Positions 3 through 13,931 of a DNA stretch of 35,021 nucleotides are shown here, piece by piece. The DNA lies in NCBI GenBank assembly GCA_002840355.1, contig PHAL01000027.1:1-35021 (forward strand), given 5' to 3'. How positions within the stretch are numbered: the first letter of the stretch is position 1; each line of letters opens with the position of its first letter. This DNA comes from Elusimicrobia bacterium HGW-Elusimicrobia-3. Lineage in GTDB: Bacteria > Elusimicrobiota > Elusimicrobia > Elusimicrobiales > UBA9959. The notes under the pieces were generated by a model. That model was given only the letters and a program-made list of their open reading frames with translations. It was not told the DNA's origin and ran no database searches. Position numbers and translations under genes: made by a program.

Positions 3-113
3 GCCGCAGGATTTGAGATAGAGCGGCTGGAATTGTTCGCTCGTCCCGATTATCCCGCTGATATACGTCTGGATGGCAGAGAGAGCGTGGGGCTAATAGC
101 TGTAAAAAAATGA
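3..113 (+). CDS. C-terminal fragment of an unidentified protein
   Basis: An open frame enters from the left edge and gives 36 residues ending in a Lys-Lys pair before TGA at 111-113. The TGA overlaps the ATG of the next gene as ATGA (110-113), the usual sign of translational coupling, so this is probably the end of a real gene co-transcribed with the histidine kinase. The tail contains an AAGFEIERLELF stretch, which loosely recalls the last strand and helix of class I SAM-dependent methyltransferases. The fragment is too short to assign a family, and that resemblance is only a guess. Confidence 0.5.
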   Translation, partial: AAGFEIERLELFARPDYPADIRLDGRESVGLIAVKK

Positions 114-2365
114 GACTATTCCGGGCATTCACTGTATTAGCCTGCTGCACGCTGTTTTGCCTGCCAGCCATGTGCGCACAACTAGCAGCAGCCCCCCATC
201 AGCCAGTAACTTCTCTTGAGAATGGCCGCGTTTTTTACCCGATACGTAGTGCGCAAGTCATAGTTGACGATGAAAAAGCGTTCTCGCTTGAAGAAATACG
301 CCGCCTGGAAACCTTAGGCAAGGCCCCGTGGACCACCGCAGAGAAACTGAACTTCGGTTATTCCCCGGCGCGGTACTGGCTGAAGGTCGAAGTCACCAAT
401 ACATCCTCTATTGAACGGAACTGGATACTGGAATTCAGTTATCCTCTTATACAGATACTTCATGTGTACCGCTTTGGAGATGATGAAACACCTGTTTCCT
501 GGCTGACCGGTCGACTGTCCCCGTTCGGTAGCCGCCCGATTGCTCACCGCAATTTCCTTTTCAACTTTTCTTCCGCCAAGGGAAGCCGTACCGTTTTCTA
601 CCTGATGTTGGAAAGTTCAGGGACTCTGCTGGCTCCTATGGCGGTGTATTCCCAACAGGAGTTCCTTGGCCGCAGCGTCGGGAGCACAGCCGGCATAGGG
701 CTTTACTGCGGCGTGATACTAGCAATGGTGTTGTTTAACTTATTTCTTCTGCTTACCTCCAAAGACAGGAATTACCTCTACTACATCTGTTACGCATTCA
801 CTTTCTGTTTGCTAATGAACACCCTCAATGGGATAACATACCAGTACCTGTGGCCGAACATGGCGGCATGGAACCGGGTTAGTGTTCCGATACTGGCAGG
901 CGTCTGCTACCTTTTTCTTGTCCTCTTCACCCGGTCCTTTCTGGAAACCAGGCGGCATGCGCCCCGCCTGGATCAGGGGCTCACCATCATAATCTCCGGG
1001 GCGTTGTTTTTGATAGTTGGAGGATTGTTTCATTATGGTCTGCTGGTTAATAAATTCACCAGCTTTTTTATTTCCGCAGCACCGCTTGTGGTGCTGCCGA
1101 TATCAATCTGGTGCCTGAGGAATGGCTCTCAAGTGGCCGGTTATTACTCTTTAGCTTTCAGTTTCTTCTTTATAGGCGCGGCTCTACGGGCGGCCAGGGA
1201 TCTTGCCTGGATACCCCAGAGCCTGTTTACCGATTACGGCGCATACTTCGGTTCGGCTGCGGAAATGCTTCTCCTTTCACTAGGCTTGGCTGCGCGCATA
1301 CGACTACTGAAAGATGAAAAATTGCGGTCCGAACTGCAAGCCTTTGAAGCAGAGCGCCAGTTAACCGATAGCAAGATTGAACTTGAACGACAGTCGGCTA
1401 TTTCATCTATCGCCGCCCAGGTGGCGCACGATATCCGGTCCCCCCTGGCCGCATTGGGCGCGGCCGCCAAAGGCCTCAGCCTTCCCGGCGACCAGCGTAC
1501 GCTTATAGACGGCGCCATCGGGCGTATGCAGGGCATAGCGGACGATCTGCTGCAGCGCTACCGCGCGCCAGGCGTTGCTGTAAAAGCCAAACTGAATACC
1601 TGCGCCCTTGCCGGCCTGATAGACCAGGTCCTGGCCGAGAAGCGCCTGCAGCACAAAGATAAGACCGGCATAAAAATAGAATTCAGCGCCGACGCCGGCG
1701 GCTTAAAAGCCACCGTAGATGCCAAGGAACTACAGCGCATAATCTCCAACCTGATCAATAATGCCATAGAGGCCTTCCCCGGCGCCGGCACAGTTGCCGT
1801 AAGCCTGGCCGGGGCCGGCGGTATGATCCTGGTAGAAATAAAAGACGACGGAAAAGGCATCCCCCCGGAGATACTGGCAAAACTCGGGAAGAAAGGGGAA
1901 ACGCACGGCAAAGCCGGCGGCACAGGCCTCGGCCTCCACCACGCTCGTGTTTCTGTAGAGAGCTGGGGTGGCAGCCTTAAGATAGAATCGGAACCGGGCC
2001 TGGGCACAGGAGTGACAATAACCCTTCCGATTGCCGCCAAGCCTGCCGCAGGCCCTCAGGCCGCACTACTGGACGACGACCCGCTGGTCCACATGAACTG
2101 GCGCCTGGCCGCCAAAGCCGCCGGCGCGGTGCTAAATTCCTATAAGACCCCGCAGGAATTCGCCGCAGCCGCCGAAACCCTGCCGCGCGATATCCCCCTG
2201 TACATCGACTCCGAGCTCGGCAATGATCTTAAAGGCGAGGATATCGCCAAAGACCTGCACGGGAAAGGCTTCACCGACATCACCATGGCCACCGGCCACG
2301 GCCCCGATAAATTCACACACCTCCCCTGGCTCAAAGTAACCGGCAAAGAGCCCCCCTGGGCTTGA
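110..2365 (+). CDS. 7TM (7TMR-DISM) hybrid sensor histidine kinase with C-terminal receiver
   Basis: This is a membrane sensor kinase that would autophosphorylate on histidine and pass phosphate to a receiver. A signal peptide (about 1-23) is followed by an extracytoplasmic beta-rich region (about 30-185) of 7TMR-DISM extracellular type. Seven hydrophobic helices (about 193-395) and a short coiled coil (400-435) come next. The H-box is at His440 (AHDIRSPL), the N-box at Asn547/Asn551, and the G1 (DDGKG, 579-583) and G2 (GGTGLGL, 603-609) boxes complete the ATPase. The C-terminus is a receiver-like domain with the acidic cluster Asp655-657 and phosphoacceptor candidate Asp700 (YIDSELG). The start overlaps the preceding stop by ATGA; only a poor Shine-Dalgarno is visible. 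A sigma-54-type promoter with dyad sites lies just downstream, so a role in controlling that cluster is plausible but unproven. Confidence 0.9.
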   Translation: MRLFRAFTVLACCTLFCLPAMCAQLAAAPHQPVTSLENGRVFYPIRSAQVIVDDEKAFSLEEIRRLETLGKAPWTTAEKLNFGYSPARYWLKVEVTNTSSIERNWILEFSYPLIQILHVYRFGDDETPVSWLTGRLSPFGSRPIAHRNFLFNFSSAKGSRTVFYLMLESSGTLLAPMAVYSQQEFLGRSVGSTAGIGLYCGVILAMVLFNLFLLLTSKDRNYLYYICYAFTFCLLMNTLNGITYQYLWPNMAAWNRVSVPILAGVCYLFLVLFTRSFLETRRHAPRLDQGLTIIISGALFLIVGGLFHYGLLVNKFTSFFISAAPLVVLPISIWCLRNGSQVAGYYSLAFSFFFIGAALRAARDLAWIPQSLFTDYGAYFGSAAEMLLLSLGLAARIRLLKDEKLRSELQAFEAERQLTDSKIELERQSAISSIAAQVAHDIRSPLAALGAAAKGLSLPGDQRTLIDGAIGRMQGIADDLLQRYRAPGVAVKAKLNTCALAGLIDQVLAEKRLQHKDKTGIKIEFSADAGGLKATVDAKELQRIISNLINNAIEAFPGAGTVAVSLAGAGGMILVEIKDDGKGIPPEILAKLGKKGETHGKAGGTGLGLHHARVSVESWGGSLKIESEPGLGTGVTITLPIAAKPAAGPQAALLDDDPLVHMNWRLAAKAAGAVLNSYKTPQEFAAAAETLPRDIPLYIDSELGNDLKGEDIAKDLHGKGFTDITMATGHGPDKFTHLPWLKVTGKEPPWA

Positions 2366-2374
2366 TCATCAATG

Positions 2375-2407
2375 TTTTCATCTGAAAATAATATTTTCAT
2401 CTGAAAA
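2375..2407. promoter_or_regulatory. Tandem palindromes, candidate enhancer (UAS) for a sigma-54 promoter
   Basis: Two identical copies of TTTTCATCTGAAAA occur at 2375-2388 and 2394-2407, 19 bp apart. Each is a dyad with 6-bp arms. Their centres lie about 138 and 119 bp upstream of the predicted start of the sigma-54 promoter at 2494-2509, where enhancer-binding proteins usually sit. They are too tight to act as terminators because the loop is only 2 nt. The role is inferred from spacing and symmetry. Confidence 0.5.
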
Positions 2408-2448
2408 TACTTTCCCGGTTTCGACACATACTGAACCCCGAAAAGGCA

Positions 2449-2469
2449 GCGTTTTAATCACTAAAACGC
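2449..2469. repeat. Inverted repeat, 8-bp arms
   Basis: GCGTTTTA at 2449-2456 is the exact complement of TAAAACGC at 2462-2469, with a 5-nt loop. It lies about 60 bp upstream of the predicted sigma-54 transcription start and has no following T-run. An operator or protein-binding dyad is therefore more likely than a terminator for the kinase gene. Confidence 0.5.
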
Positions 2470-2493
2470 CGTTAAAGCCCCTATTTCCGCTCC

Positions 2494-2509
2494 TGGCATA
2501 AGAATTGCT
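2494..2509 (+). promoter_or_regulatory. Sigma-54 (-24/-12) promoter for the first exported paralog
   Basis: TGGCATAAGAATTGCT matches the TGGCAYR-N4-TTGCW consensus, with GG and GC dinucleotides at the required spacing. The predicted start is near 2520. A small dyad (TGCTCC-GATA-GGAGCA, 2506-2521) overlaps the -12 element and the start site. The core AAGAATTGC is shared with the promoter at 3453-3468. Confidence 0.75.
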
Positions 2510-2545
2510 CCGATAGGAGCATCTGACACCGGAGGCACGGTACCT

Positions 2546-3439
2546 ATGAAATCAGGAAATGATATGAGGAAAAACAAGACGGAGAAAACGGTAGCACGAA
2601 ACATCCTTAAACTCGGCGGCAAGGCCGCCGGTGGGGCGATGGGCCTCGCTATGGCCGTGCAGGGCCTGGCAATGGCCGGAGGCGACACCTTCTTGCAACT
2701 GCAGAAGATGACCGCCTCGGACACGGACACAGATAACACAATATCGCTGCCCTCCCCTGTGGTAGCGCAGACGCGCCTGTCCCTGAAAAAGAAAATCCCA
2801 CTTGGCCTCCAGGAACAGATCCTTGCCTTTTGCGAATTGGCGAGAAACATTGTCAACGACCAGTCAGTCGCCAGACAGTTCGCGGCGCGCCCGTCTGAAT
2901 ATTTGCTGGAACGGGGGCTCCGAGACGTGACACTGGACCCGTCCTCCCAAGAAGTAAAAAGCATCTTGGCCCTTGGAGATGATGAAGTACGCGAGGCTGC
3001 CCGTAACGGTGATATCAAACGCTACGTGCGGCTTATGGAAGAAAAGGGACTGTTCGATACCCGCACGTTGGCAGACGTTTTTAATCTGGACAAGACTGTT
3101 GTCATGGTGGTCCAGGTGCTGATGTCTGTCACAGTTACAGAAATCGACTCCATAACGCACTCCTTGGCTACGACCTTTCTTGACCTCTCTGCGATAGTGG
3201 CGGTATCCGGCATAGAGGAAGATAATTATGGCCTCCTGTCCGGCATGGAAGGAAAGATCACTACGTTGCTTTGGGGGAAAGATGTGGCCAGGGAAATAAT
3301 CGCCGGCTACATCGCCAACAAAGCAGAGACTTGGGCCGATGCAATCTCTGGAACGCAGGCAGCCGAAAAGGCCGGCATCTCAAAAGAAGCCTTGAAAGCT
3401 GCGCTGACAGCAAAATTAACCAAGGCCCTTACGGAATAA
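2546..3439 (+). CDS. Exported protein of unknown function, paralog 1 of a radical SAM-linked pair
   Basis: I do not recognise a named family. The protein has a long basic N-terminus and hydrophobic segment ending in AMAGG, consistent with Sec export. A conserved module with YLLERGL (about 98-168) follows, then a hydrophobic Val/Met-rich stretch (about 180-220) and a C-terminal GMEGKITTLLWG block (about 232-268). It has a single cysteine, Cys96, aligned with the only cysteine (Cys90) of the neighbour at 3557-4432. GGAGG (2531-2535) lies 10 nt before this ATG. An in-frame ATG at 2564, with AGGA 6 nt before it, would align better with the paralog's start and may be the true one. It has its own sigma-54 promoter. 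Possible roles are substrate of the downstream radical SAM enzyme or envelope protein. Confidence 0.75.
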   Translation: MKSGNDMRKNKTEKTVARNILKLGGKAAGGAMGLAMAVQGLAMAGGDTFLQLQKMTASDTDTDNTISLPSPVVAQTRLSLKKKIPLGLQEQILAFCELARNIVNDQSVARQFAARPSEYLLERGLRDVTLDPSSQEVKSILALGDDEVREAARNGDIKRYVRLMEEKGLFDTRTLADVFNLDKTVVMVVQVLMSVTVTEIDSITHSLATTFLDLSAIVAVSGIEEDNYGLLSGMEGKITTLLWGKDVAREIIAGYIANKAETWADAISGTQAAEKAGISKEALKAALTAKLTKALTE

Positions 3440-3452
3440 CAGGAAACCGCAC

Positions 3453-3468
3453 CGGCACAAGAATTGCA
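3453..3468 (+). promoter_or_regulatory. Sigma-54 (-24/-12) promoter for the second exported paralog
   Basis: CGGCACAAGAATTGCA fits YGGCACR-N4-TTGCA with correct GG/GC spacing, deviating only at the first base. It lies 14 bp after the stop of the first paralog. The predicted start is near 3479, giving a leader of about 78 nt. Finding the same promoter class before both paralogs makes chance less likely. Confidence 0.75.
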
Positions 3469-3556
3469 CCAACAAGAACGCTAACAATTAATAAGTGAAA
3501 ACAATGGAATTCTAAAAAGATACGAGCGAAAACAATACGGAGAAAAGGAAATTATC

Positions 3557-4432
3557 ATGAAGAAAAACAGCAAGTCTGCAGATATGTGGTTCAAAACGGG
3601 TAAAAAGGCGGCCTTCGGCGCGGTGGGGCTTTCCCTCCTGTTCCAGAACATGTCCTTCGCGGCTGGCGGCGCTTTGGAGCGGCTCCGGGGCATGGCGGCG
3701 ACCGGAGACGACAACATAAAGAGCGTTCTCCCTGCCCCAGTCCCGGTCGTGGTGGATCACACCCTGCGCCTCTCGATTAGCAGGTCAGTTCCGAAGGACA
3801 TGCAGGACCAGGCCAGGGCGCTCTGCCTTCTGGCCATGGACGTCATCGCCAGACCGACCGAGGCCGGCGCAAGGTTCACCGCCAATCCTATGGGTTACCT
3901 AACCGAACGCGGAATAAGTCCTGACGCGCTGGACCTCGACTCCCGTGAAGTGAAAATAGTTCTGGCCCTCGGGGACGCGGAGGTGCGCGGCGCGGCTATG
4001 AATGGTGATGTCCGTCGCTACCTTGGCCTGCTCGAAGAAAGGGGAATCCTCGGCCATAGCGCCAGCACGGACAAAGTCCTTGCCGATAACAAAGACCAGG
4101 AGTTCATGGCTGCAATTAACGTGGTGGCCGTGGTCAACTTGGTCGCGGTTGTTGCGGCTGCGGTCGAAACGGCGACCGCCGTGCACTCCGTCCAGTACTT
4201 CTGGGGGAGCAGCGATAAAGGCAGCGTTTTGGACGGAATCGAGGGCAAGGCCACGACCCTACTCTGGGGTCCCAAGGCCACGAATGAGATGATAACCGGA
4301 TACATATCAGAGAAGGCCGAAGAGTGGACCAACGCCATCTCCGACCTACCGGCGGTAAAGGCGAAGAACCTTACCAAGGCAGACATCCGGCAGGCCATAG
4401 AGCAGCATCTCACCGACAGGCTCAGTAAGTAA
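3557..4432 (+). CDS. Exported protein of unknown function, paralog 2 of a radical SAM-linked pair
   Basis: This is a homologue of the protein at 2546-3439 with the same order of elements. A signal peptide ends near SFAAGG (about residue 36). A region with one cysteine (Cys90) and a YLTERGI module (about 103-165) follow. A strongly Val/Ala-rich segment (about 180-207, AINVVAVVNLVAVVAAAVE) could be a membrane helix or a hydrophobic core, and a GIEGKATTLLWG block (about 224-258) comes before a charged helical tail. AAGGA lies 7 nt before the ATG. The WG block, the lone cysteine and the YLxERG module are the best conserved parts, so they are probably functional. No known domain is visible to me. 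Its position just before a radical SAM gene suggests substrate or partner, but this is inference. Confidence 0.8.
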   Translation: MKKNSKSADMWFKTGKKAAFGAVGLSLLFQNMSFAAGGALERLRGMAATGDDNIKSVLPAPVPVVVDHTLRLSISRSVPKDMQDQARALCLLAMDVIARPTEAGARFTANPMGYLTERGISPDALDLDSREVKIVLALGDAEVRGAAMNGDVRRYLGLLEERGILGHSASTDKVLADNKDQEFMAAINVVAVVNLVAVVAAAVETATAVHSVQYFWGSSDKGSVLDGIEGKATTLLWGPKATNEMITGYISEKAEEWTNAISDLPAVKAKNLTKADIRQAIEQHLTDRLSK

Positions 4433-4458
4433 ATCTGTTCCACCGGCCTGCCGGCCGC

Positions 4459-4493
4459 GGAAGGGAACCGCCGAAAAATTGCGGCTCCCTTCC
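4459..4493 (+). other. Strong stem-loop between paralog 2 and the radical SAM gene
   Basis: GGAAGGGAACCGC (4459-4471) pairs with GCGGCTCCCTTCC (4481-4493) with one mismatch around a 9-nt A-rich loop. There is no T-run, so it is not a classical intrinsic terminator. It could protect the 3' end of the paralog transcript or attenuate read-through into the radical SAM gene. Confidence 0.55.
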
Positions 4494-4525
4494 GACGGTT
4501 ATCGCGGGCATAAGGGCAGTTTTCG

Positions 4526-4531
4526 TATAAT
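4526..4531 (+). promoter_or_regulatory. TATAAT -10 element upstream of the radical SAM operon
   Basis: A perfect TATAAT lies 103 bp before the radical SAM ATG, with no recognisable -35 box. It suggests the enzyme operon can be transcribed by the housekeeping sigma factor, separately from the sigma-54 promoters of the two paralogs. The resulting leader contains the inverted repeat at 4552-4600. Confidence 0.4.
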
Positions 4532-4551
4532 TTAGATTAGAAAGACAGGAG

Positions 4552-4600
4552 CGGTTCCTCAAGTTGTTATAAAAAGCCCTACAGCGAACGGCAGGAACCG
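4552..4600 (+). repeat. Leader inverted repeat before the radical SAM gene
   Basis: CGGTTCCT (4552-4559) and AGGAACCG (4593-4600) are perfect complements separated by 33 nt, so the leader could form a closed helix with an internal loop. It ends 20 nt before the AAGGAG ribosome-binding site. I see no match to a riboswitch class I know. Confidence 0.4.
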
Positions 4601-4634
4601 TAAATCCCGGACCATTCCTAAGGAGATACACATT

Positions 4635-5690
4635 ATGACCCCCTCGGAAACCTCTATAGGCGAGATGCTTGCCCGGGCCCATAAGCCGGCCACCCTGGTC
4701 TTTATAACTACCTACAAGTGCACCGCCAGTTGCAGGAGCTGCTGTTTCGGCTGTACGCCAAAGCATCCGCTCAACTCCGATAGCGGCAAGATAAAAAAGA
4801 TCATCGACGCTGCCGTTGAACGCTTCCCGTCATTGAAGCTGGCCGTTTTCACCGGCGGAGAATGCTTTTTGCTGGGGAAGGACCTGAACAAAGCCATCAC
4901 TCACGCAAAAAGCCGGGGGCTCCTTACCCGGTGTGTCACCAACGGCTACTGGGCGGTCACCCCTGAAATCGCGACAAAGCGGCTGAAGGAGCTGCGGGAC
5001 GCCGGTCTCACCGAGATAAATTTTTCAGCCGGTTTTGCGCACCAAGAATTCGTCCCGAGCGAGTCCGTGCTGAACGGTGCCCTCAGCGCGGCGAAAATGG
5101 GGATGCTGGCGCTGCTTTCGGTAGAGAACAACGCCAGCGCGGATAATGGCGGCGAGGCCCTGAAGAAGCATCCGCTTACGCAGCGGTTCCTCAAGGAACA
5201 CCCGGATAAAGCGAAGTTCTTCAAGGTGATGGACACCGTTTGGGTCGGAAAGGACAACACTGCGTTCGCGGATGTAAAATCTAAGCCCTGCGAGACCATC
5301 CTTGACTCCCTGGTAGTAACGCCGGACCACAGACTCAAATCCTGCTGCGGCCTGACCGTCAATACCATCCCGGAAATGGACATGGGCCCGCTTACCGCGG
5401 ACAATCTCGGCCGGCTGCATGCGGACCAGTTCGACGATTTCCTCAAAATCTGGCTGAAAGTGGATGGGCCGGAGGGAATCATCACCCACATTAAGAAGAG
5501 CCGGTCCGGGTTGAAAATACCGAAGTTCACCCACCCCTGCCAGGCCTGCAAGTTCCTCTATTCCAGCCTGGAAATAAAGAAATATCTTCTCGAGAACTTC
5601 CAGGAAAAGGTCTCCGACGTCCTTTTCCGCTTCTCCGCGGCCAAAGAGATCTCGAAGCAGGTCAACAACCTTATCGGATACGGAGCGTAA
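4635..5690 (+). CDS. Radical SAM enzyme with C-terminal cysteine cluster
   Basis: This is a radical SAM protein of 351 aa. The [4Fe-4S] cluster motif CxxxCxxC is at Cys29, Cys33 and Cys36, with two further cysteines (Cys37, Cys40) close by. A TGGECF motif follows, corresponding to the GGE SAM-binding motif of this superfamily. Later cysteines (Cys219, Cys237/238, Cys302 and Cys305) look like an auxiliary cluster region of SPASM or twitch type, as in enzymes that modify peptides or proteins. AAGGAG precedes the ATG by 9 nt. It is followed after 3 bp by a membrane protein gene, then by a hydrolase, in an apparent operon. The two exported paralogs upstream are the natural candidate substrates, but no reaction can be stated. 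Confidence 0.85.
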   Translation: MTPSETSIGEMLARAHKPATLVFITTYKCTASCRSCCFGCTPKHPLNSDSGKIKKIIDAAVERFPSLKLAVFTGGECFLLGKDLNKAITHAKSRGLLTRCVTNGYWAVTPEIATKRLKELRDAGLTEINFSAGFAHQEFVPSESVLNGALSAAKMGMLALLSVENNASADNGGEALKKHPLTQRFLKEHPDKAKFFKVMDTVWVGKDNTAFADVKSKPCETILDSLVVTPDHRLKSCCGLTVNTIPEMDMGPLTADNLGRLHADQFDDFLKIWLKVDGPEGIITHIKKSRSGLKIPKFTHPCQACKFLYSSLEIKKYLLENFQEKVSDVLFRFSAAKEISKQVNNLIGYGA

Positions 5691-5693
5691 TTT

Positions 5694-6230
5694 ATGACAT
5701 CGAACTTGTTCAAAGCGGAGTGGAGCGCCCCGGTGATAACTTCCACCGCCGTGCTTTCCACAGTCCTGCTGGGAGTGTTCTTCCTCCTGTTCACTAAGAT
5801 CGCGGGGAACCCCGACACCGAAACCAGGATCATGGCGATGGCTACGCAGGCGGTGCTGCTTCTCACGATGGCCTTCTCCTATCTGCTGTCGCCGTCGGGG
5901 TATACCATAGATGAGAAGAACCTCACAATCGTCAGAATGATGAAGCCGGTTGTGATCCCCCTCTCTGAGATTACCAAGGCGGAAGCCGCCGTGCCGGCAC
6001 TGCTGTACGGCTCCATAAGGCTGTTGGGCAACGATGGGCTCTGGGGCCGCTACGGCAAATACAGCAACGCCGCGCTCGGCAAATACTACTTGTACGTAAG
6101 GAGCGGGAAGGACCAACTACTGATCGAGGCCGCCAATAAGTACATCATCGCTCCGGAACGGCCGCAGGAATTCCTGCAGAACCTAGAGCGCGCGATGGCG
6201 GCGGCAAAAAAAACGGGAGGCGCGCAATGA
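5694..6230 (+). CDS. Small membrane protein with a bacterial PH-like domain
   Basis: This 178-aa protein has two hydrophobic helices (about 15-37 and 48-66) followed by a soluble C-terminal part starting near YTIDEKNLTI. That pattern, a strand-rich module after a TM pair with an ITKAE segment, resembles bacterial pleckstrin-homology-like domains (bPH families). The match is by pattern only. The gene starts 3 bp after the radical SAM stop, and its TGA overlaps the next ATG as ATGA (6227-6230), so all three genes should be translated as one operon. It may anchor or scaffold the radical SAM enzyme at the membrane; this is inference. Confidence 0.7.
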   Translation: MTSNLFKAEWSAPVITSTAVLSTVLLGVFFLLFTKIAGNPDTETRIMAMATQAVLLLTMAFSYLLSPSGYTIDEKNLTIVRMMKPVVIPLSEITKAEAAVPALLYGSIRLLGNDGLWGRYGKYSNAALGKYYLYVRSGKDQLLIEAANKYIIAPERPQEFLQNLERAMAAAKKTGGAQ

Positions 6231-7306
6231 AACTGTTACTAGCGGCACTATTGGCCTTGAACGCGGCATCTTTCTGCCGGGCGGGGGAAACGCAGAACCT
6301 CAAGTCCTTCGACGGCCTCCGGCTGGATTACGAGATAGACTACCCGGAGGACAGGAACGCGTCCAGGGTAGTTGTATTGCTCCACGGCTCCGGGCCGCAG
6401 GACATGCGCGAGGACCTCAGCGCGGTCTCGGCGCCCGGCACGAAGAACTATTTTTTCACCGACGTCTCCGCGGCCCTCACGGCGAAAGGTTTCGCGGTAG
6501 TCCGCTACAATAAGCGGAGCTACCAGCTCCAGCAGCTGCTGAAGAAAGACCCCTCTCTCGCCAAAACGTCGAAGTTCAATAAATATATCAAGAAGCCTTT
6601 GACCGCCATGATACGCGACGCTGAAACCTTCGCGAAGTTCTCGGCCAGGACCTTCCCCGGAGCCAAGATCTACCTGCTCGGCCACAGCGAAGGCTCCCGT
6701 ATCGCCCTGCAGGTCGCGGACAGGAACAAGCTCATCGCCGGCGTGGGGCTTATCGGCCTCAATACGCAGAGCCTGGACACCACCCTCTTCGAACAAGTCG
6801 TCTACCGTTCTCTCTATTACTTCGATTCGCTGGACGCGGACCGCAACGGCAGCCTGGCCGCGGAAGAACTTGCCGCTAACGACGCCATAGCCAAAAGTCT
6901 CTTCGGCCAGATGCCGGTCATCGACCAGGACAAGAGCGGGACCCTCGAGCGCGCCGAATTCATGGGCGCGAGCCTGATGAACATCCTCGCGGATATGCCA
7001 GGCACCGCGGAATGGCGAAAAGAGGAGGCGCTGCTGAAAAAACCGGCCGCGATATTGAGGCAGGCCGCTTTCGACGTCTCGTTCTTCCAGGGCGAGCTGG
7101 ACAACCAGACACAGGCCTACAACGCAAAGGCCCTGCAGCTGGCCAACACTTTCTCCTGGAAGAAGCCGAACCTGCATTTCAAATTCTTCCCGGGCCTGGG
7201 GCATGCCCTGGATAAGCGGACCGGCTACATGGATCTCGTCTTCAAGCCAGCGGACAAACAGGCGCTGGGCGAGCTCGCGGCGGAGCTAGATTCCCGCTGG
7301 AAATAG
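6227..7306 (+). CDS. Exported alpha/beta hydrolase with inserted EF-hand pair
   Basis: This is a predicted secreted serine hydrolase of 359 aa. A signal peptide (1-19, ending SFCRA) is followed by the oxyanion strand LLHGSG (His53), the nucleophile elbow GHSEG with Ser154, and a late GLGHA motif giving His326. Two perfect EF-hand calcium loops are inserted between the nucleophile and the C-terminal part: Asp203 to Glu214 (DADRNG) and Asp233 to Glu244 (DQDKSG). Each has acidic residues at loop positions 1, 3 and 12 and Gly at 6. Calcium may stabilise or switch the lid region. The substrate is unknown; peptidase or esterase are both possible for this fold. It is the last gene of the radical SAM operon, overlapping its neighbour by ATGA. 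A short CCCGG-gcag-CCGGG hairpin starts at the stop codon. Confidence 0.85.
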   Translation: MKLLLAALLALNAASFCRAGETQNLKSFDGLRLDYEIDYPEDRNASRVVVLLHGSGPQDMREDLSAVSAPGTKNYFFTDVSAALTAKGFAVVRYNKRSYQLQQLLKKDPSLAKTSKFNKYIKKPLTAMIRDAETFAKFSARTFPGAKIYLLGHSEGSRIALQVADRNKLIAGVGLIGLNTQSLDTTLFEQVVYRSLYYFDSLDADRNGSLAAEELAANDAIAKSLFGQMPVIDQDKSGTLERAEFMGASLMNILADMPGTAEWRKEEALLKKPAAILRQAAFDVSFFQGELDNQTQAYNAKALQLANTFSWKKPNLHFKFFPGLGHALDKRTGYMDLVFKPADKQALGELAAELDSRWK

Positions 7307-7825: not shown

Positions 7826-10800
7826 ATGGAGCAGGAACCTAAATTAGACCCGTCCACGATTACGGACGTAGAGACGGCCAAACTGGCCCTTCGCTGGGCC
7901 GTGGAGAAGATCCACGGCCAGCAGGAGGAGCTCGGCCGGCTGCGCGATGACAACCGCAACAAGACCTCCATTAACCGCTCCCTCACCGAGCAGGTGGAAC
8001 AGAAGACCGAGGTGCTCAAGCGCTGGCAGGGCACGATCAAGACCTGGGAGGAGAACTGGAAGACGCAGACGGCCATGGAGGCCGACCTGAAGGCCAAGCT
8101 GCGCGAGCAGATCCTCAACGAGGAGGCCTCCAACTGGCGCGCCTCCCGCGCCCAGCTGGAAAAAGAGATCCTGGCGCTCAAGAACGAGCTGGCCGCCAAG
8201 GAAGGCGAGATCGGCCGCATGAAGCTGCAGGCCATAGACGAGATCCGCAAATCCTCCGAGCTCAAGGAGGCCGAGCTCAACGCCCTGCTCTCCAAGCACC
8301 AGGACAATTTGGCCGCGCGCGAGAACGCGCTGCGCGAGAAGTACGAGAGCCTGGAGCGCGAGCTCACCTCCTCGCAGCGGGTGCGCGCCGAGCAGGAGGA
8401 GATGGCCCTGCGCGAGCGCTACGAGATCCGCGCCAAGGAGCTCTCCGCCCTTTTCGAACAGAAGGAGATTCAGCTCGAGAAGTTCCGCCGCGAGCTGGAA
8501 GACACCCATTCGCAGAAGATAGAGACCGGCACGGGCGCGGCCCGCAAGGAGCTCGAGGAGCGCAGGCTGCGCCTCGAAGAAGATTTCAGGACCGCCGAAG
8601 CCGCGGCCCGGGCCGAGGCCGAGAAGCGCGTGGACGAGGTCCGCGCCGCCGCCGCCGCCCGCGAGGCCGAGCGGCACGCCGCCTTCGCCGCGCGCCAGGC
8701 CGCGCTGGAGCAGGATTTCGCCGAGCGCGCCGAGCGCGCCGCGCAGGAGAAGAAGGCCGAGCTGGACGCGGTGAAAGCCGCCTCCGCCTCCGAGCTGGAG
8801 ACGCTGCGCGCCCGCATGAAGGACGCGATAGAGAAGCGCGAGCAGGACTACGTGAACCTGCGCCTGGAGATGGAAGGCCAGCTGGTGGAGCTGGTCAAGA
8901 AGCGCGAGGAGGAGATCCGCGCGCGCTACGAGCGCTCCGCCGACGAGGCCCGCGCCAAGTGGGAGAAGGCCGCCGAGGACACCCGCGCCCAGGTGGGCGA
9001 GGGCGTGCGCCGGGAGACCGAGCGCATCGAAGCCGATTTCAGGAAACGCGAAGAGGAACAGCGGGCCCGCGCGGCGGTTGAGGCCGCGGACTTCCGCGCC
9101 CGCCTCGACGCCGAAACCCGCGCCGCCGGCGAGGAGCTGCGCGCCGCGATGCTGGAGGAGCAGAACTCCTGGCTGGCCCGCCAGCAGGCCGCCGCCGACG
9201 AGACCCGCAAGGCCCTGGAGGCCGCCCACGCCGAGCGCCTGGACAGCCTGCGCGCCGGCCTGGAAGAGGCCTACACGCAGAAGGAGAAGGCGCTGGAGAC
9301 CCGCGTGGCCTCCGTGCAGCGCCGCATCAAGGCCGAGTGGCTCGCCCGCGAGGACGAGTGGCGCCTGGAGAAGGAAGCCTCCCTCCACGAGGAGAAAGAA
9401 AAGCTCAAGGCCGAGTTCGAAAGCCACCGCACCCTGCTGCACCGCAAGCTGTCCCAGTTCGAGGACGAGCTGAAGCTCAAGTACGCCCAGAAGGAGGCCG
9501 AGCTGGAGGACGCCTCCAAGGCCGCCACCGACGCCGCGGCCGCCGAGCTGAAAAAAGAGTTCCACGCCGAGAAGGAGCGCCTGCGCGCCCAGGCCGAAAG
9601 CTTCAACCGCCACATAGAGGCCAGGGAAAAGGCGCTGCGCGCCGAGCTGGAAGCCGAAGAGAAGAAATTAAGGACCGCCTACGCCGGCCGCGAAACCGAG
9701 CTGAAAGCCGAGCTGGCCCGCCGGACACAGGAAGCGGAAGCCCTGTTCAAGGCCAAACTGGATGAGGAGAAGGCGCTCATGGCCGGCGAATTCTCGGCGC
9801 GCGCCGCCGAGGCCGACCGCGAGCGCCTGAAGCTGGCGGAGGAGAAGACAGCGCAGGAAGCCGCTCACGCCGCGCGGGTCCGCGAGCTGGAAGCCGCGGC
9901 CGAAGAGCGCGTCCGCGCCGAGCGCGCCAGGGCCGAAGAGGCCGTGAGCGCCCGCGCCGCGCAGCTGCAGGCGCGCGAGCAGGAGCTCGACAGGCTCAAG
10001 ACCGCCCTGGAGCAGCAGCATAACGACCTCAAGATCAGGCTCTACCAGGACCTGCAGGGCAAGGAGCAGGACCTGTTCGGCAAGATAGCCGCGGCCAAGG
10101 AGGAGATGTTCAAGTCCCTCAACGCCCACCGCGAGGTGCTCGACCGCGAGCACGAAGAGCGCATGACCGGCCTGATGCAGAAGGAAGAGCAGATGCAGGG
10201 CCGCTTCGACGAGAAACTCCGTGTGGCCGAGGCCGGCTACCGGCAGCGCATGCAGGACGAGGCCGACAAGCTGGCCATGGCCTTCGAGGGCAAAAAAGCC
10301 GAATTCGAGAACAAGCTCAAGACCCGAGAGCAGGAGCTCGCCGCCGCTTACGCGGAGAAAGAGGCGCGCCTGGAAACCGAAATGGCCGCGCGCCAGACCG
10401 GCGCCGCCGCGGCGCAGGAAAAGGCGGCCGAGCGCCGCCGCCACGAGATAGAGGCCTCCCTCGCGAGGCAGGAGAAGGAGCTGGACCGCCGCTACGCCGA
10501 GATGGCCGACAAGCTGCGCGCCCAGTTCCAGAGCGAAAAAGCGGTCTGGGAATCGCAGAAGCTTTCGGCCCTCAACTCCGAGCGCCAGGCCATGCGCGCC
10601 GAGTTCGAGAAGAAGGAGGCCGCTTTCGCGCAGAAGCTCGACGAGGAGCTGGCCCGCAGCCGCCAGGAGCGCTCGCGCCTGGACGAGGAAGTGGCCCTCA
10701 AGAAGGAAGAGCTGGAGAAGAATTATTACGCGGAGCTGGAGCGCAGCCGGGCCGCCTTCGAGAAGACCCGCCGCGAGCAGGAAAGCCGCATCAAGGCGAT

Positions 10801-10990
10801 GACCGAGGAGCTGGAGGAAGAGGAGAACCGCCTGACGATCTGGACGCTGCAGAAAGAAGAGGAGTACGCCAAGAAGTACCAGGCGCGCGAGAGGGAAATG
10901 ATGCGCTTGTGGGAAGAGAAGCAGTCCGGGCTGGAGCGTGATTTCGAGGCTAAGATCCGCGAGCTGCAGGAGAAGCTCAGGCTGAAGTAG
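7826..10990 (+). CDS. Giant coiled-coil protein, 1054 aa
   Basis: Nearly the whole protein is an uninterrupted charged helix rich in Glu, Lys, Arg, Ala and Leu. The only prolines I see are Pro5 and Pro9, and there is no cysteine. No signal peptide, TM segment or globular ATPase head (Walker A/B) is present, so it is not an SMC or Rad50 protein. A recurring motif of the form YAxKExxLE (for example near LKYAQKEAEL, AYAEKEARL) suggests internal duplication. If it is a continuous coiled coil, rise per residue predicts a rod of about 150 nm. The next gene (11019-13931) is a paralog 28 bp away. The likely role is a cytoskeletal filament or scaffold, but composition alone cannot distinguish these. 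GGAGGA is 5 nt upstream of the ATG. Confidence 0.85.
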   Translation: MEQEPKLDPSTITDVETAKLALRWAVEKIHGQQEELGRLRDDNRNKTSINRSLTEQVEQKTEVLKRWQGTIKTWEENWKTQTAMEADLKAKLREQILNEEASNWRASRAQLEKEILALKNELAAKEGEIGRMKLQAIDEIRKSSELKEAELNALLSKHQDNLAARENALREKYESLERELTSSQRVRAEQEEMALRERYEIRAKELSALFEQKEIQLEKFRRELEDTHSQKIETGTGAARKELEERRLRLEEDFRTAEAAARAEAEKRVDEVRAAAAAREAERHAAFAARQAALEQDFAERAERAAQEKKAELDAVKAASASELETLRARMKDAIEKREQDYVNLRLEMEGQLVELVKKREEEIRARYERSADEARAKWEKAAEDTRAQVGEGVRRETERIEADFRKREEEQRARAAVEAADFRARLDAETRAAGEELRAAMLEEQNSWLARQQAAADETRKALEAAHAERLDSLRAGLEEAYTQKEKALETRVASVQRRIKAEWLAREDEWRLEKEASLHEEKEKLKAEFESHRTLLHRKLSQFEDELKLKYAQKEAELEDASKAATDAAAAELKKEFHAEKERLRAQAESFNRHIEAREKALRAELEAEEKKLRTAYAGRETELKAELARRTQEAEALFKAKLDEEKALMAGEFSARAAEADRERLKLAEEKTAQEAAHAARVRELEAAAEERVRAERARAEEAVSARAAQLQAREQELDRLKTALEQQHNDLKIRLYQDLQGKEQDLFGKIAAAKEEMFKSLNAHREVLDREHEERMTGLMQKEEQMQGRFDEKLRVAEAGYRQRMQDEADKLAMAFEGKKAEFENKLKTREQELAAAYAEKEARLETEMAARQTGAAAAQEKAAERRRHEIEASLARQEKELDRRYAEMADKLRAQFQSEKAVWESQKLSALNSERQAMRAEFEKKEAAFAQKLDEELARSRQERSRLDEEVALKKEELEKNYYAELERSRAAFEKTRREQESRIKAMTEELEEEENRLTIWTLQKEEEYAKKYQAREREMMRLWEEKQSGLERDFEAKIRELQEKLRLK

Positions 10991-11018
10991 CCCCCCGCGG
11001 GGCGGACCGGGACGACTT

Positions 11019-13931
11019 ATGTACCAAGGCAGGGAACCGCACGATTTCGAGGACATCCTCAAGGAGACCGAGTTAGACTCGGCCAAGATGGTCCTGCGCC
11101 TGACTTCAGAGCTCCGCGAGAAGGAGCTGGAGGTGGCGTCCACGCGTTCCCGCAGCTTCGACGAGATACAGCGCAACAACAAGGCCAAGGAGGCCGAGTT
11201 CGAAGCGCTGATGCGCGCGCAGGAAGACCGCATCGCCAAGCGCGAGCAGGACCTCGCCCGCCTGCTGGTGGAGAAGGAGTCGGCGCTGTGGCAGAAGTAC
11301 CAGGCCATGCTCGACGACGCCGTGGCCCGCCAGCGCTCCGAGTTCGAATCCGAGCGCGAGCTGCTGAAGGCCGACATCGAGAAGAAGGAAACGGAGCTGG
11401 CCGCGCAGAAGAAGAACCTGCGCCTGGAGATGGAAGCCCTTTTCAAGAAATGGGAGGCCGAGCGCGAGGCCGACTTCAAGATCGAGCGCGAAACCTTCAT
11501 AGAGGAGCTGAAGCTGGGCCGCGAGACGGCCAAGAAAGAGGCGCTGGAGCGCGCCCGCCAGATGGAAGAGCTCTGGCGCCAGAAGCTCAGCCAGCAGGAA
11601 GCCGACCTTCAAAGCCGCGAGGGGCTGGCCGCCGAGGAGATCCGCAGCCAGATGCGCCGCGAGCGCGTGGAGGAGCTCAAGAAGCTCAACGACCGGCTTA
11701 ATTCCGAATTTTCCAGGCGCGAGGCCGAGCTCTACGCCCATTACGCCTCCTGGCTGGAGGAGAACAAGAAGCTCATAGAGGACAAGCACGCCCGCCGCCT
11801 CGACGCCGCCGAGGCCGAGAACCGCGACAGGGCCTCCAGGCTGGAGGACGCGCTGGCCAAGACCCGCCAGGAGCTGGACGCCAGGGAGAAGGCCTGGGAA
11901 GATAAATACGCCGAGCTGAAGAAATTTTACGCCGACAAGGAAAGCGCGCTGGCCGCGTCCGACCGCGAGCTGCAGGCGCAGCACCTGGCCCGCGAGCGCG
12001 AGCTGGCCGCCAGGCACGAGCAGCTGGACCGGGAGCTCAAGGAAGAGGCCGCGAGGCGCCGCGACGCGCTGGAGAAGAAGGAGCGCAACCTGGAGCAGCA
12101 GTTCGCGGCCAACCTGGCCGAGTTCGCCGCGGAGACGGAACGCCGGATGCGCGGCATAGAGACACGCGAAGCCGAGCTGGCCAGACAGCGCGAGGAATCC
12201 GCGCGCATGCGCGCGCAGATAGGCGAGCTGCTGGCGCAGAAGCAGCGCGAGCTGGAGCAGACCTTCGAGGAGCGCAGCTCCATGATGCGCCAGTCGCTGG
12301 AAGAATCCTACAAGATCAAGGAGGGCAGCCTGGCCGGCAAGTACGCCGAGATAGAGCGCCAGTACGCCGCCCTCACCGCCCAGAAGGACGCCGCGCTGGC
12401 CAAGGCGGACGGCCTGGCCGCGGAGATCGAGCGCCTGAAAGAGGCGCTGCTGTCGCGCGATTCCGAGGCGCGGAGCGTGATAGACGCGGAGAGGGTCCGC
12501 CTGGAGGCCGACCTGAAGCGCGCCGAGGAAGGCCTGCGCGCGGACGCCGAAAAGTTTAAAGAGACAGCGCTGCGCCGCGAAGAGGCCGTGCGCGCCGACT
12601 ACGAGGAGCGGCTGCTGGCCGAGCGCGACCGCCTGGCCTCGCAGCTAAAGATAAAGGAAGAGGCCCTGGAGAAGGAGCGCGCCGCGCTGGGCGCCAGGGC
12701 GGCCGAGATGGAGGCCCGCTTCCTGGAGACGCTCAAGGCCCGCGAGGCCGAGGTTACCGAAAATTTCAGAGTGCACGTCGAAACCCTGAAGGGCCAGGCC
12801 GACGCCGCCAGGCGCGCCTGGGAAGAGGAGCGGGCCGCGCTGGCCGGGGCCGCCGAGCAGCAGGCCGAAAAAGCCCGCGTCGAAGAGGCCGCCGCCGCGG
12901 CCCGCCGCGAAGAGGAACTCAAAGTTTTCTACGAGGCCCGCGAGCGGGAACTGCGGGCCGCCGCCGCGTCCGCCGGCAGCGCCGCCGAGCGGCTGCTGGC
13001 CGAGACCTTCACCGTGCGCGAGCAGGACCTGGCCGCCCGGGTGAAGGGGCTGGAAGAAACGCTGGCCCGGATGACGGAGGAGAGTTCGGCCGCGGCCGCC
13101 GCGCAGGCCGGGCTGAAGGACGAGCTGGAGCTGCTGGGCACGCGGCTGGAGGAGAGCGAGCGCGGGCGCCAGAAACTGATACAGGAGAACCTGACCAAGG
13201 CCCGGGACCTGCGCCAGACGCTGGAGAAGGAATTCCTGGACAAGCTCAAGGAGATAGAGCAGAACTACCTGGAGCAGCTGACGGACCTGACCAGGCGCGG
13301 CGACGCGGCGCGCCGGGCCGACCAGGAAGAATACTTCCGCAAGCTGCAGTACGTCAAAGACGATTTCGAAGGCCGGCTGGCGGCCCAGGCCAAAGACATG
13401 GAAGCCTCCTACCTGGAGCGCGAGCGCGCCCTGGCCGCCGCGCTGGACAACGCCTACAAGCTCAAGGAGCGCGCCCTCGAGGCGCGCCAGGCGCAGCTGG
13501 AGAGCAACTACCAGGCCGTGCTTTCGGAGAAAGCCAGCCGCATAGACACCGACCTGCAGCTGGCCGCCGACGTCGGGCGCCTGAAGGACGAGCTGGAGCA
13601 GAAGAACCGGGCGCTCAAGGAAACCATGGCCGCGCACGACAGCCGCCTGGAAGAACTGGAAGGCAGGCTGCGCGCCGAGCACGAGGCCCGCAGGAAGAAC
13701 CTCGAAGACGGCCACCGCATGCGCGCCGCGCAGCTGGAGGCCGAGCGCGCCAAGCTCAAGGGCCTGCTGGAGCAGGAGCAGAGCCTGGTGAGCGACCTGC
13801 AGAAGCGCGAAGCCGCGCTGCAGGAAGGCTACGCCGCCCGCGAGGCGGAGCTCGCGCGGCGCTTCAAGGAAAGCCGCGAGCGGCTGGAAAAAGATTACCA
13901 GGAAAAACTGAAGAACCTCAAGGACCAGTAG
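11019..13931 (+). CDS. Giant coiled-coil protein, 970 aa, paralog of the preceding gene
   Basis: This is a second almost purely helical protein, with proline only at residue 7 and no cysteine. Its N-terminal segment aligns with the upstream neighbour: a short acidic start, SAKMVLRL against TAKLALRW, then FDEIQ against IDEIR followed by KEAE-x-x-AL. The two probably arose by duplication and may form a heteropolymer. The C-terminus ends in repeated EL/EKL heptads (KDYQEKLKNLK). It starts 28 bp after the previous stop, across a CCCCGCGGGG palindrome, with only a poor Shine-Dalgarno (GGGAC), so it is probably co-transcribed. No catalytic domain or membrane anchor is visible. Confidence 0.85.
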   Translation: MYQGREPHDFEDILKETELDSAKMVLRLTSELREKELEVASTRSRSFDEIQRNNKAKEAEFEALMRAQEDRIAKREQDLARLLVEKESALWQKYQAMLDDAVARQRSEFESERELLKADIEKKETELAAQKKNLRLEMEALFKKWEAEREADFKIERETFIEELKLGRETAKKEALERARQMEELWRQKLSQQEADLQSREGLAAEEIRSQMRRERVEELKKLNDRLNSEFSRREAELYAHYASWLEENKKLIEDKHARRLDAAEAENRDRASRLEDALAKTRQELDAREKAWEDKYAELKKFYADKESALAASDRELQAQHLARERELAARHEQLDRELKEEAARRRDALEKKERNLEQQFAANLAEFAAETERRMRGIETREAELARQREESARMRAQIGELLAQKQRELEQTFEERSSMMRQSLEESYKIKEGSLAGKYAEIERQYAALTAQKDAALAKADGLAAEIERLKEALLSRDSEARSVIDAERVRLEADLKRAEEGLRADAEKFKETALRREEAVRADYEERLLAERDRLASQLKIKEEALEKERAALGARAAEMEARFLETLKAREAEVTENFRVHVETLKGQADAARRAWEEERAALAGAAEQQAEKARVEEAAAAARREEELKVFYEARERELRAAAASAGSAAERLLAETFTVREQDLAARVKGLEETLARMTEESSAAAAAQAGLKDELELLGTRLEESERGRQKLIQENLTKARDLRQTLEKEFLDKLKEIEQNYLEQLTDLTRRGDAARRADQEEYFRKLQYVKDDFEGRLAAQAKDMEASYLERERALAAALDNAYKLKERALEARQAQLESNYQAVLSEKASRIDTDLQLAADVGRLKDELEQKNRALKETMAAHDSRLEELEGRLRAEHEARRKNLEDGHRMRAAQLEAERAKLKGLLEQEQSLVSDLQKREAALQEGYAAREAELARRFKESRERLEKDYQEKLKNLKDQ

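Follow-up and report, generated by a model that had tools for sequence, protein, structure and literature searches.

What does a radical S-adenosylmethionine (SAM) enzyme do beside two exported paralogous proteins that match no Pfam family? The question is raised by a five-gene locus on contig PHAL01000027.1 of the Elusimicrobiota metagenome-assembled genome Elusimicrobia bacterium HGW-Elusimicrobia-3, where paralogs A and B are followed by genes for a radical SAM enzyme, a two-transmembrane (2-TM) protein with a PH domain and a hydrolase (Table 1; the window is the whole 35,021-nt stretch analysed). The answer favoured here, with a probability of roughly 0.6 for the pathway as a whole, is that the locus represents a distinct class of epimerised, exported and membrane-active ribosomal peptides, with PH or SdpI proteins as immunity. 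A and B would be the precursors, each made up of a signal for export at the N-terminus, a leader folded into helices, a hydrophobic core rich in Ala and Val, and a C-terminal part that is again helical. An EpeE-type radical SAM enzyme would act before export, binding the precursor and flipping certain residues of its core from L to D, the 5'-deoxyadenosyl radical taking the C-alpha hydrogen and Cys238 (Cys223 in EpeE) returning one from the other face. The precursor would then be exported and cut, and the released D-residue-containing peptide might insert into the membranes of competing or sibling cells, with the membrane PH protein, or an SdpI protein in some relatives, shielding the producer.

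Among about 85,000 species genomes scanned, 62 loci have relatives of the radical SAM enzyme, 59 of them non-redundant, and a scan of viral contigs yielded none. The relatives are distributed over about ten phyla, including Pseudomonadota (many in Photorhabdus), Bacillota, Bacteroidota, Verrucomicrobiota, Actinomycetota, Deinococcota and Chloroflexota, while the enzyme is present in only 4 of 341 Elusimicrobiota genomes. A profile built from four Elusimicrobiota precursors alone detected precursor homologs beside the radical SAM gene in 30 of the 59 loci, and a precursor-like neighbour is present in about 49 once reading by eye is added; the other ten have truncated contigs, a frame-shifted gene or no precursor that could be picked out. 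An earlier note, made from the window's letters, had proposed that the paralogs are modified by this enzyme before export and would have abandoned the idea had the two never been neighbours; the 30 profile-based loci show the opposite. Because the adjacency is conserved across so many phyla, the proposal is strongly supported, and A and B are very probably the exported substrates of the enzyme, as judged from gene neighbourhoods. It could be argued that the genes are independent neighbours and that the enzyme acts on something else, since the precursor may stand before or after the radical SAM gene and neither the kinase nor the hydrolase at the flanks is conserved; yet the adjacency persists across about ten phyla though the enzymes are only about 31–43% identical to that of the window, which makes this explanation highly improbable. 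The order precursor, radical SAM, PH protein, hydrolase was also found in G035, and the order radical SAM, precursor, PH protein in G005. Three Photorhabdus loci (L050, L051 and L053) carry two tandem precursors 3' of the radical SAM gene, a pairing like that of the window. As well, three Mesorhizobium loci (L055:5045-6808, L069:5597-6796 and L093:5213-6793) have a second, divergent relative of the enzyme about 1 kb 5' of the first one, and some loci may thus carry enzyme pairs.

The best NCBIfam match of the window's radical SAM protein is the YydG peptide epimerase (E = 6.4e-21, nearly full length), its Pfam score lies just under the cut-off, and EpeE/YydG is the sole PDB sequence match of a profile made from three Elusimicrobiota enzymes. 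In a fold search with the AlphaFold2 model (predicted local distance difference test, pLDDT, 91), nine EpeE chains ranked first at E of about 1e-16 (TM 0.68/0.74, 8e-17), followed by PqqE at 3e-8, and the EpeE fold spans the full length of the enzyme. The extra C-terminal cysteines, from which the earlier note had expected a modifying enzyme of no named chemistry, are indeed there: in addition to CxxxCxxC, the protein has C219, C237, C238, C302 and C305, which are invariant in an alignment of 58 relatives and EpeE, while the three CxxxCxxC cysteines occur in every row but one, a truncated open reading frame (ORF). C238 shares its column with EpeE Cys223 (numbering shifted by 25, as fixed by the D210A mutant entry 8ai6), the proposed H-donor and reported radical-quenching cysteine (PMC8326336), which leaves four invariant cysteines beyond CxxxCxxC and the donor. 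From the profile, fold and alignment results, the family is therefore related to EpeE and keeps its radical-quenching cysteine, yet forms a different equivalog. L-to-D epimerisation is thus the probable chemistry, as far as homology and a predicted model can tell. Since epimerisation leaves the mass unchanged (PMC5808125), the mass-shift test first proposed would miss it.

Most precursors share an export signal, or an ATP-binding cassette (ABC) exporter in its place, a leader and an Ala/Val/Asn-rich core, and they are mostly about 170–390 residues long. The signals vary with lineage, being twin-arginine translocation (Tat)-like in most Proteobacteria and of the lipobox type in Bacteroidota; the Lactobacillales precursors have no export signal, and an ABC exporter follows in some of those loci. 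Tat export would suit a precursor that is modified first in the cytoplasm. Moreover, many precursors contain an N-terminal [RK][LIV][YF]GxP motif, which is missing from the two in the window. The model of precursor B has a pLDDT of about 90 for residues 78-165 and for most of 240-290, is confidently helical over 78-165 and most of 230-290, and falls below 50 for 168-222, a stretch that aligns with the cores of homologs and is Ala/Val/Asn/Thr-rich in them. A fold search with this model gave no match, and an FtsQ-like match in G006 was dismissed as chance. In the cores of Calidithermus (L041) and of Thermus aquaticus plasmid pTA14, Asn alternates with Ala or Val over about 40 residues, a pattern shared with polytheonamide. 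Taken over 41 precursors, identity between residues at lag 2 is above that of shuffles (mean z +0.84) and at lag 3 below it (-0.58), mean values that are descriptive only because the sequences are related. Where the cores are richest in Asn (L041 and pTA14), a methyltransferase-like gene comes after, reminiscent of the N-methylasparagine residues in polytheonamide (PMC5808125). The pTA14 locus (L112:2599-6074) is the clearest polytheonamide-like set seen: its precursor combines a Tat-like signal with a long core of alternating Asn, and genes for the radical SAM enzyme, an SdpI family protein and a methyltransferase follow it.

Other precursors depart from this plan. In Paenibacillus ginsengarvi (L073:9123-16990), a precursor-like N-terminal leader and core are fused to a very large remainder in a protein of 2622 residues. 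Two Verrucomicrobia loci (L087:9086-11242 and L088:9089-11219) have conserved extra genes between the radical SAM and PH genes, one methyltransferase-like (no Pfam hit in L088) and another bearing an RR-type signal, and a second precursor family adjoins them, with its core at the very C-terminus (alignment A6).

The 2-TM protein, which the earlier note had recognised as PH-like and given no role, was confirmed as a bPH_5 protein (E = 1.2e-16). PH-like 2-TM proteins lie near the radical SAM or precursor gene in 30 of the 59 loci and are among the most conserved parts, and both a profile search (E = 1e-4) and hhalign (94.7%) connect the proteobacterial set with the Elusimicrobiota one. An SdpI-family protein takes the place of the PH protein in the operons of thermophile and Bacillota loci; it scores above the Pfam cut-off in L038, L041 and L060 and is annotated on pTA14. 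The window has no SdpI gene, and the PH protein occupies that place. SdpI is the immunity protein against the SDP toxin in Bacillus subtilis, and for this reason the PH/SdpI partner is best read as immunity, so that the PH protein is, by analogy, likely an immunity protein. A membrane-active secreted peptide against which the PH protein protects is a reading somewhat favoured over its alternatives. One of these keeps the substrates and makes the product a D-residue envelope protein or signal with a structural, adhesive or stress-sensing role, the PH protein being an anchor or processing factor. The large size of the precursors, the lipoproteins among them in Bacteroidota and the fusion to a 2622-residue protein would fit such a product; SdpI-type immunity proteins in several operons and channel-like alternating cores do not, and plasmid carriage and sporadic distribution suit a competition peptide better, so that we regard it as unlikely. 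Extending the membrane-active reading, an undescribed class can tentatively be imagined in which protein-sized precursors, exported by Tat, Sec or lipoprotein routes in many lineages, have an internal core turned by EpeE-type enzymes into a partly or fully alternating L/D chain, which might form beta-helical membrane channels like polytheonamide, guarded by PH-domain or SdpI proteins, in about ten phyla including thermophile plasmids and Lactobacillales.

Several observations weigh against the epimerised, membrane-active peptide pathway. Reading by eye supplied about 19 of the 49 precursor assignments, which are weaker evidence, alternation is not significant in the window's own precursor cores, no dedicated protease is common to the loci, and the immunity role rests on gene position and SdpI substitutions. 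Tested for a relationship to the SDP toxin precursor SdpC, 6 of 35 precursors weakly match the SdpC family TIGR04032 (best 8e-6, below cut-off) and in 3 cases the reversed sequences have no such match. The SdpC profile built here fails its control, since reversed precursors match it no worse than forward ones, and the profile-profile probability is at most 12%; homology to SdpC was thus not demonstrated, and only the SdpI neighbourhood was used. In addition, the window's enzyme scores 75 bits against an equivalog cut-off of 300 for TIGR04078 (YydG), and EpeE Asp210 is not conserved, its column holding N, T, V or S. Together with an identity to EpeE of about 17–18% by structure alignment, these last two points also favour the alternative that the enzyme modifies the core by another chemistry, such as a cross-link, methylation, desaturation or cleavage. 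The invariance of the Cys223 equivalent and of the cluster cysteines speaks against it, and thioether or aromatic cross-links are disfavoured by the lack of Cys and the scarcity of aromatic residues in several cores, that of precursor B among them; another chemistry is accordingly improbable, and epimerisation is still preferred.

Table 1. Features of the locus, in window coordinates
Feature	Position	Strand	Length	Description
7TMR-DISM histidine kinase	110-2365			ahead of the paralogs
-24/-12-like (sigma-54) site	2494..2509	+		5' of precursor A; TGGCATAAGAATTGCT, 1 mismatch
Precursor A (paralog A)	2546..3439	+	297 aa	putative; signal peptide, helical leader, Val-rich core, C-terminal part
-24/-12-like (sigma-54) site	3453..3468	+		5' of precursor B; CGGCACAAGAATTGCA, 1 mismatch
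Precursor B	3557..4432	+	291 aa	putative; paralog of A; AlphaFold2 model m9c2fe1aed667
Putative core of precursor B	4058..4222	+		residues 168-222, Ala/Val-rich, flanked by two confidently predicted helical domains
RNA hairpin	4459..4493	+		strong; between precursor B and radical SAM gene
Radical SAM gene	4635..5690	+	351 aa	EpeE/YydG-type, putative peptide epimerase
2-TM protein	5694..6230	+		bacterial PH domain (bPH_5); putative immunity protein
Alpha/beta-hydrolase	6227..7306	+		exported, two EF-hand loops; accessory

The layout first described was borne out in the sequence, namely the gene order, the paralogy of A and B (36–38% identical, both with a hydrophobic N-terminal segment), the 3-nt gap between the radical SAM and 2-TM genes and the ATGA overlap of the latter with the hydrolase gene. 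The region 4430-4520, which holds the hairpin, folds at -48.5 kcal/mol (z = -5.5), and the hairpin may keep the precursor in excess over the enzyme. The sigma-54 promoters claimed for both paralogs exist as near-consensus sites and lie directly 5' of a paralog each, although two such sites in the window would not be rare by chance (0.6 expected, and at least two in 14 of 100 shuffles). RpoN-like DNA-binding domains are encoded in the host genome. No such site was found 5' of the homologous genes in L034, L035 and L043, and sigma-54 control does not hold as a trait of the system.

Co-occurrence of all five genes, which the earlier note had suggested checking, was found in part: the precursor, radical SAM and PH genes recur in relatives, and the hydrolase joins them in just two loci, that of the window and that of G035, which does not support the claim that it acts on the products as a part of the system. 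The 7TM hybrid kinase is real; it accompanies the cassette only in the window and was not seen in the homologous loci. The hydrolase, the kinase and the sigma-54 sites were therefore rejected as core parts. The hydrolase has a weak Pfam alpha/beta-hydrolase match and weak EF-hand matches, and both of its EF loops read DxDx[NS]GxxxxxE. The EF-hand pair (window 6833-6985) is inserted within the hydrolase domain, at the same position in the G035 ortholog with less canonical loops, and is possibly a calcium-dependent lid. Beyond the cassette, window 7826-13931 contains two coiled-coil ORFs of great length, 1054 and 970 residues, with a G+C of 0.64-0.70, compared with 0.52-0.59 in the cassette region.

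No description of this gene set was found in the open-access literature, which is weak evidence as subscription papers were mostly outside the search. EpeE-type epimerases and D-residue peptides are known, and their pairing with large exported precursors and PH/SdpI partners is apparently undescribed. In the open-access papers found, EpeE is confined to short epipeptides of Firmicutes, and channels with D-residues at multiple sites are described solely for proteusins, whose epimerases are unrelated. If true, the proposed pathway would bridge EpeE-type enzymes and multi-site D-residue channel peptides, add many new D-peptide products (those of Thermus and Calidithermus included), offer D-residue peptides a testable exit route from the cell, in the form of Tat or Sec pre-proteins, and give a function, immunity, to a set of small PH-domain membrane proteins.

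Among known systems, SDP cannibalism (SdpABC and SdpI) shares with these loci an exported pre-protein with a helical propeptide, an Ala/Val-rich core and a C-terminal tail, as well as an SdpI-type gene in several loci; unlike SDP, a radical SAM enzyme is present here, and neither SdpA nor SdpB was noticed in those loci that were inspected by eye. A separate Calidithermus locus (L102:1354-2659) encodes an SdpC-family lipoprotein with an alternating Asn/Val core adjoining an SdpA-like gene, with no radical SAM gene within the 3.5 kb examined. Proteusins, such as polytheonamide with its epimerase PoyD, also have long Ala/Val/Asn-rich cores, which are strongly alternating here in Thermaceae, where a methyltransferase gene follows. 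In contrast to proteusins, the core is internal in most of the present precursors and many have export signals, and PoyD-type epimerases have no auxiliary cluster, whereas the EpeE-type enzymes here have the four further invariant cysteines. As for the leader, 2 of 35 precursors weakly match the nitrile-hydratase-type leader model TIGR04351 (E 3e-4 or weaker). The closest enzyme is that of the B. subtilis epipeptide pathway epeXEPAB (yydFGHIJ), as EpeE/YydG has the same fold, cluster cysteines and H-donor cysteine as the window's enzyme. EpeX is a short peptide that is epimerised at two sites and served by a dedicated protease and an ABC transporter, whereas the precursors here are protein-sized and have a folded leader as well as, in many lineages, a signal for export, their partners are PH or SdpI proteins, and the enzyme falls below the YydG equivalog cut-off. 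The secreted product, predicted here, is known in the epipeptide pathway, where the D-residues of EpeE products are essential for membrane permeabilisation (PMC8326336).
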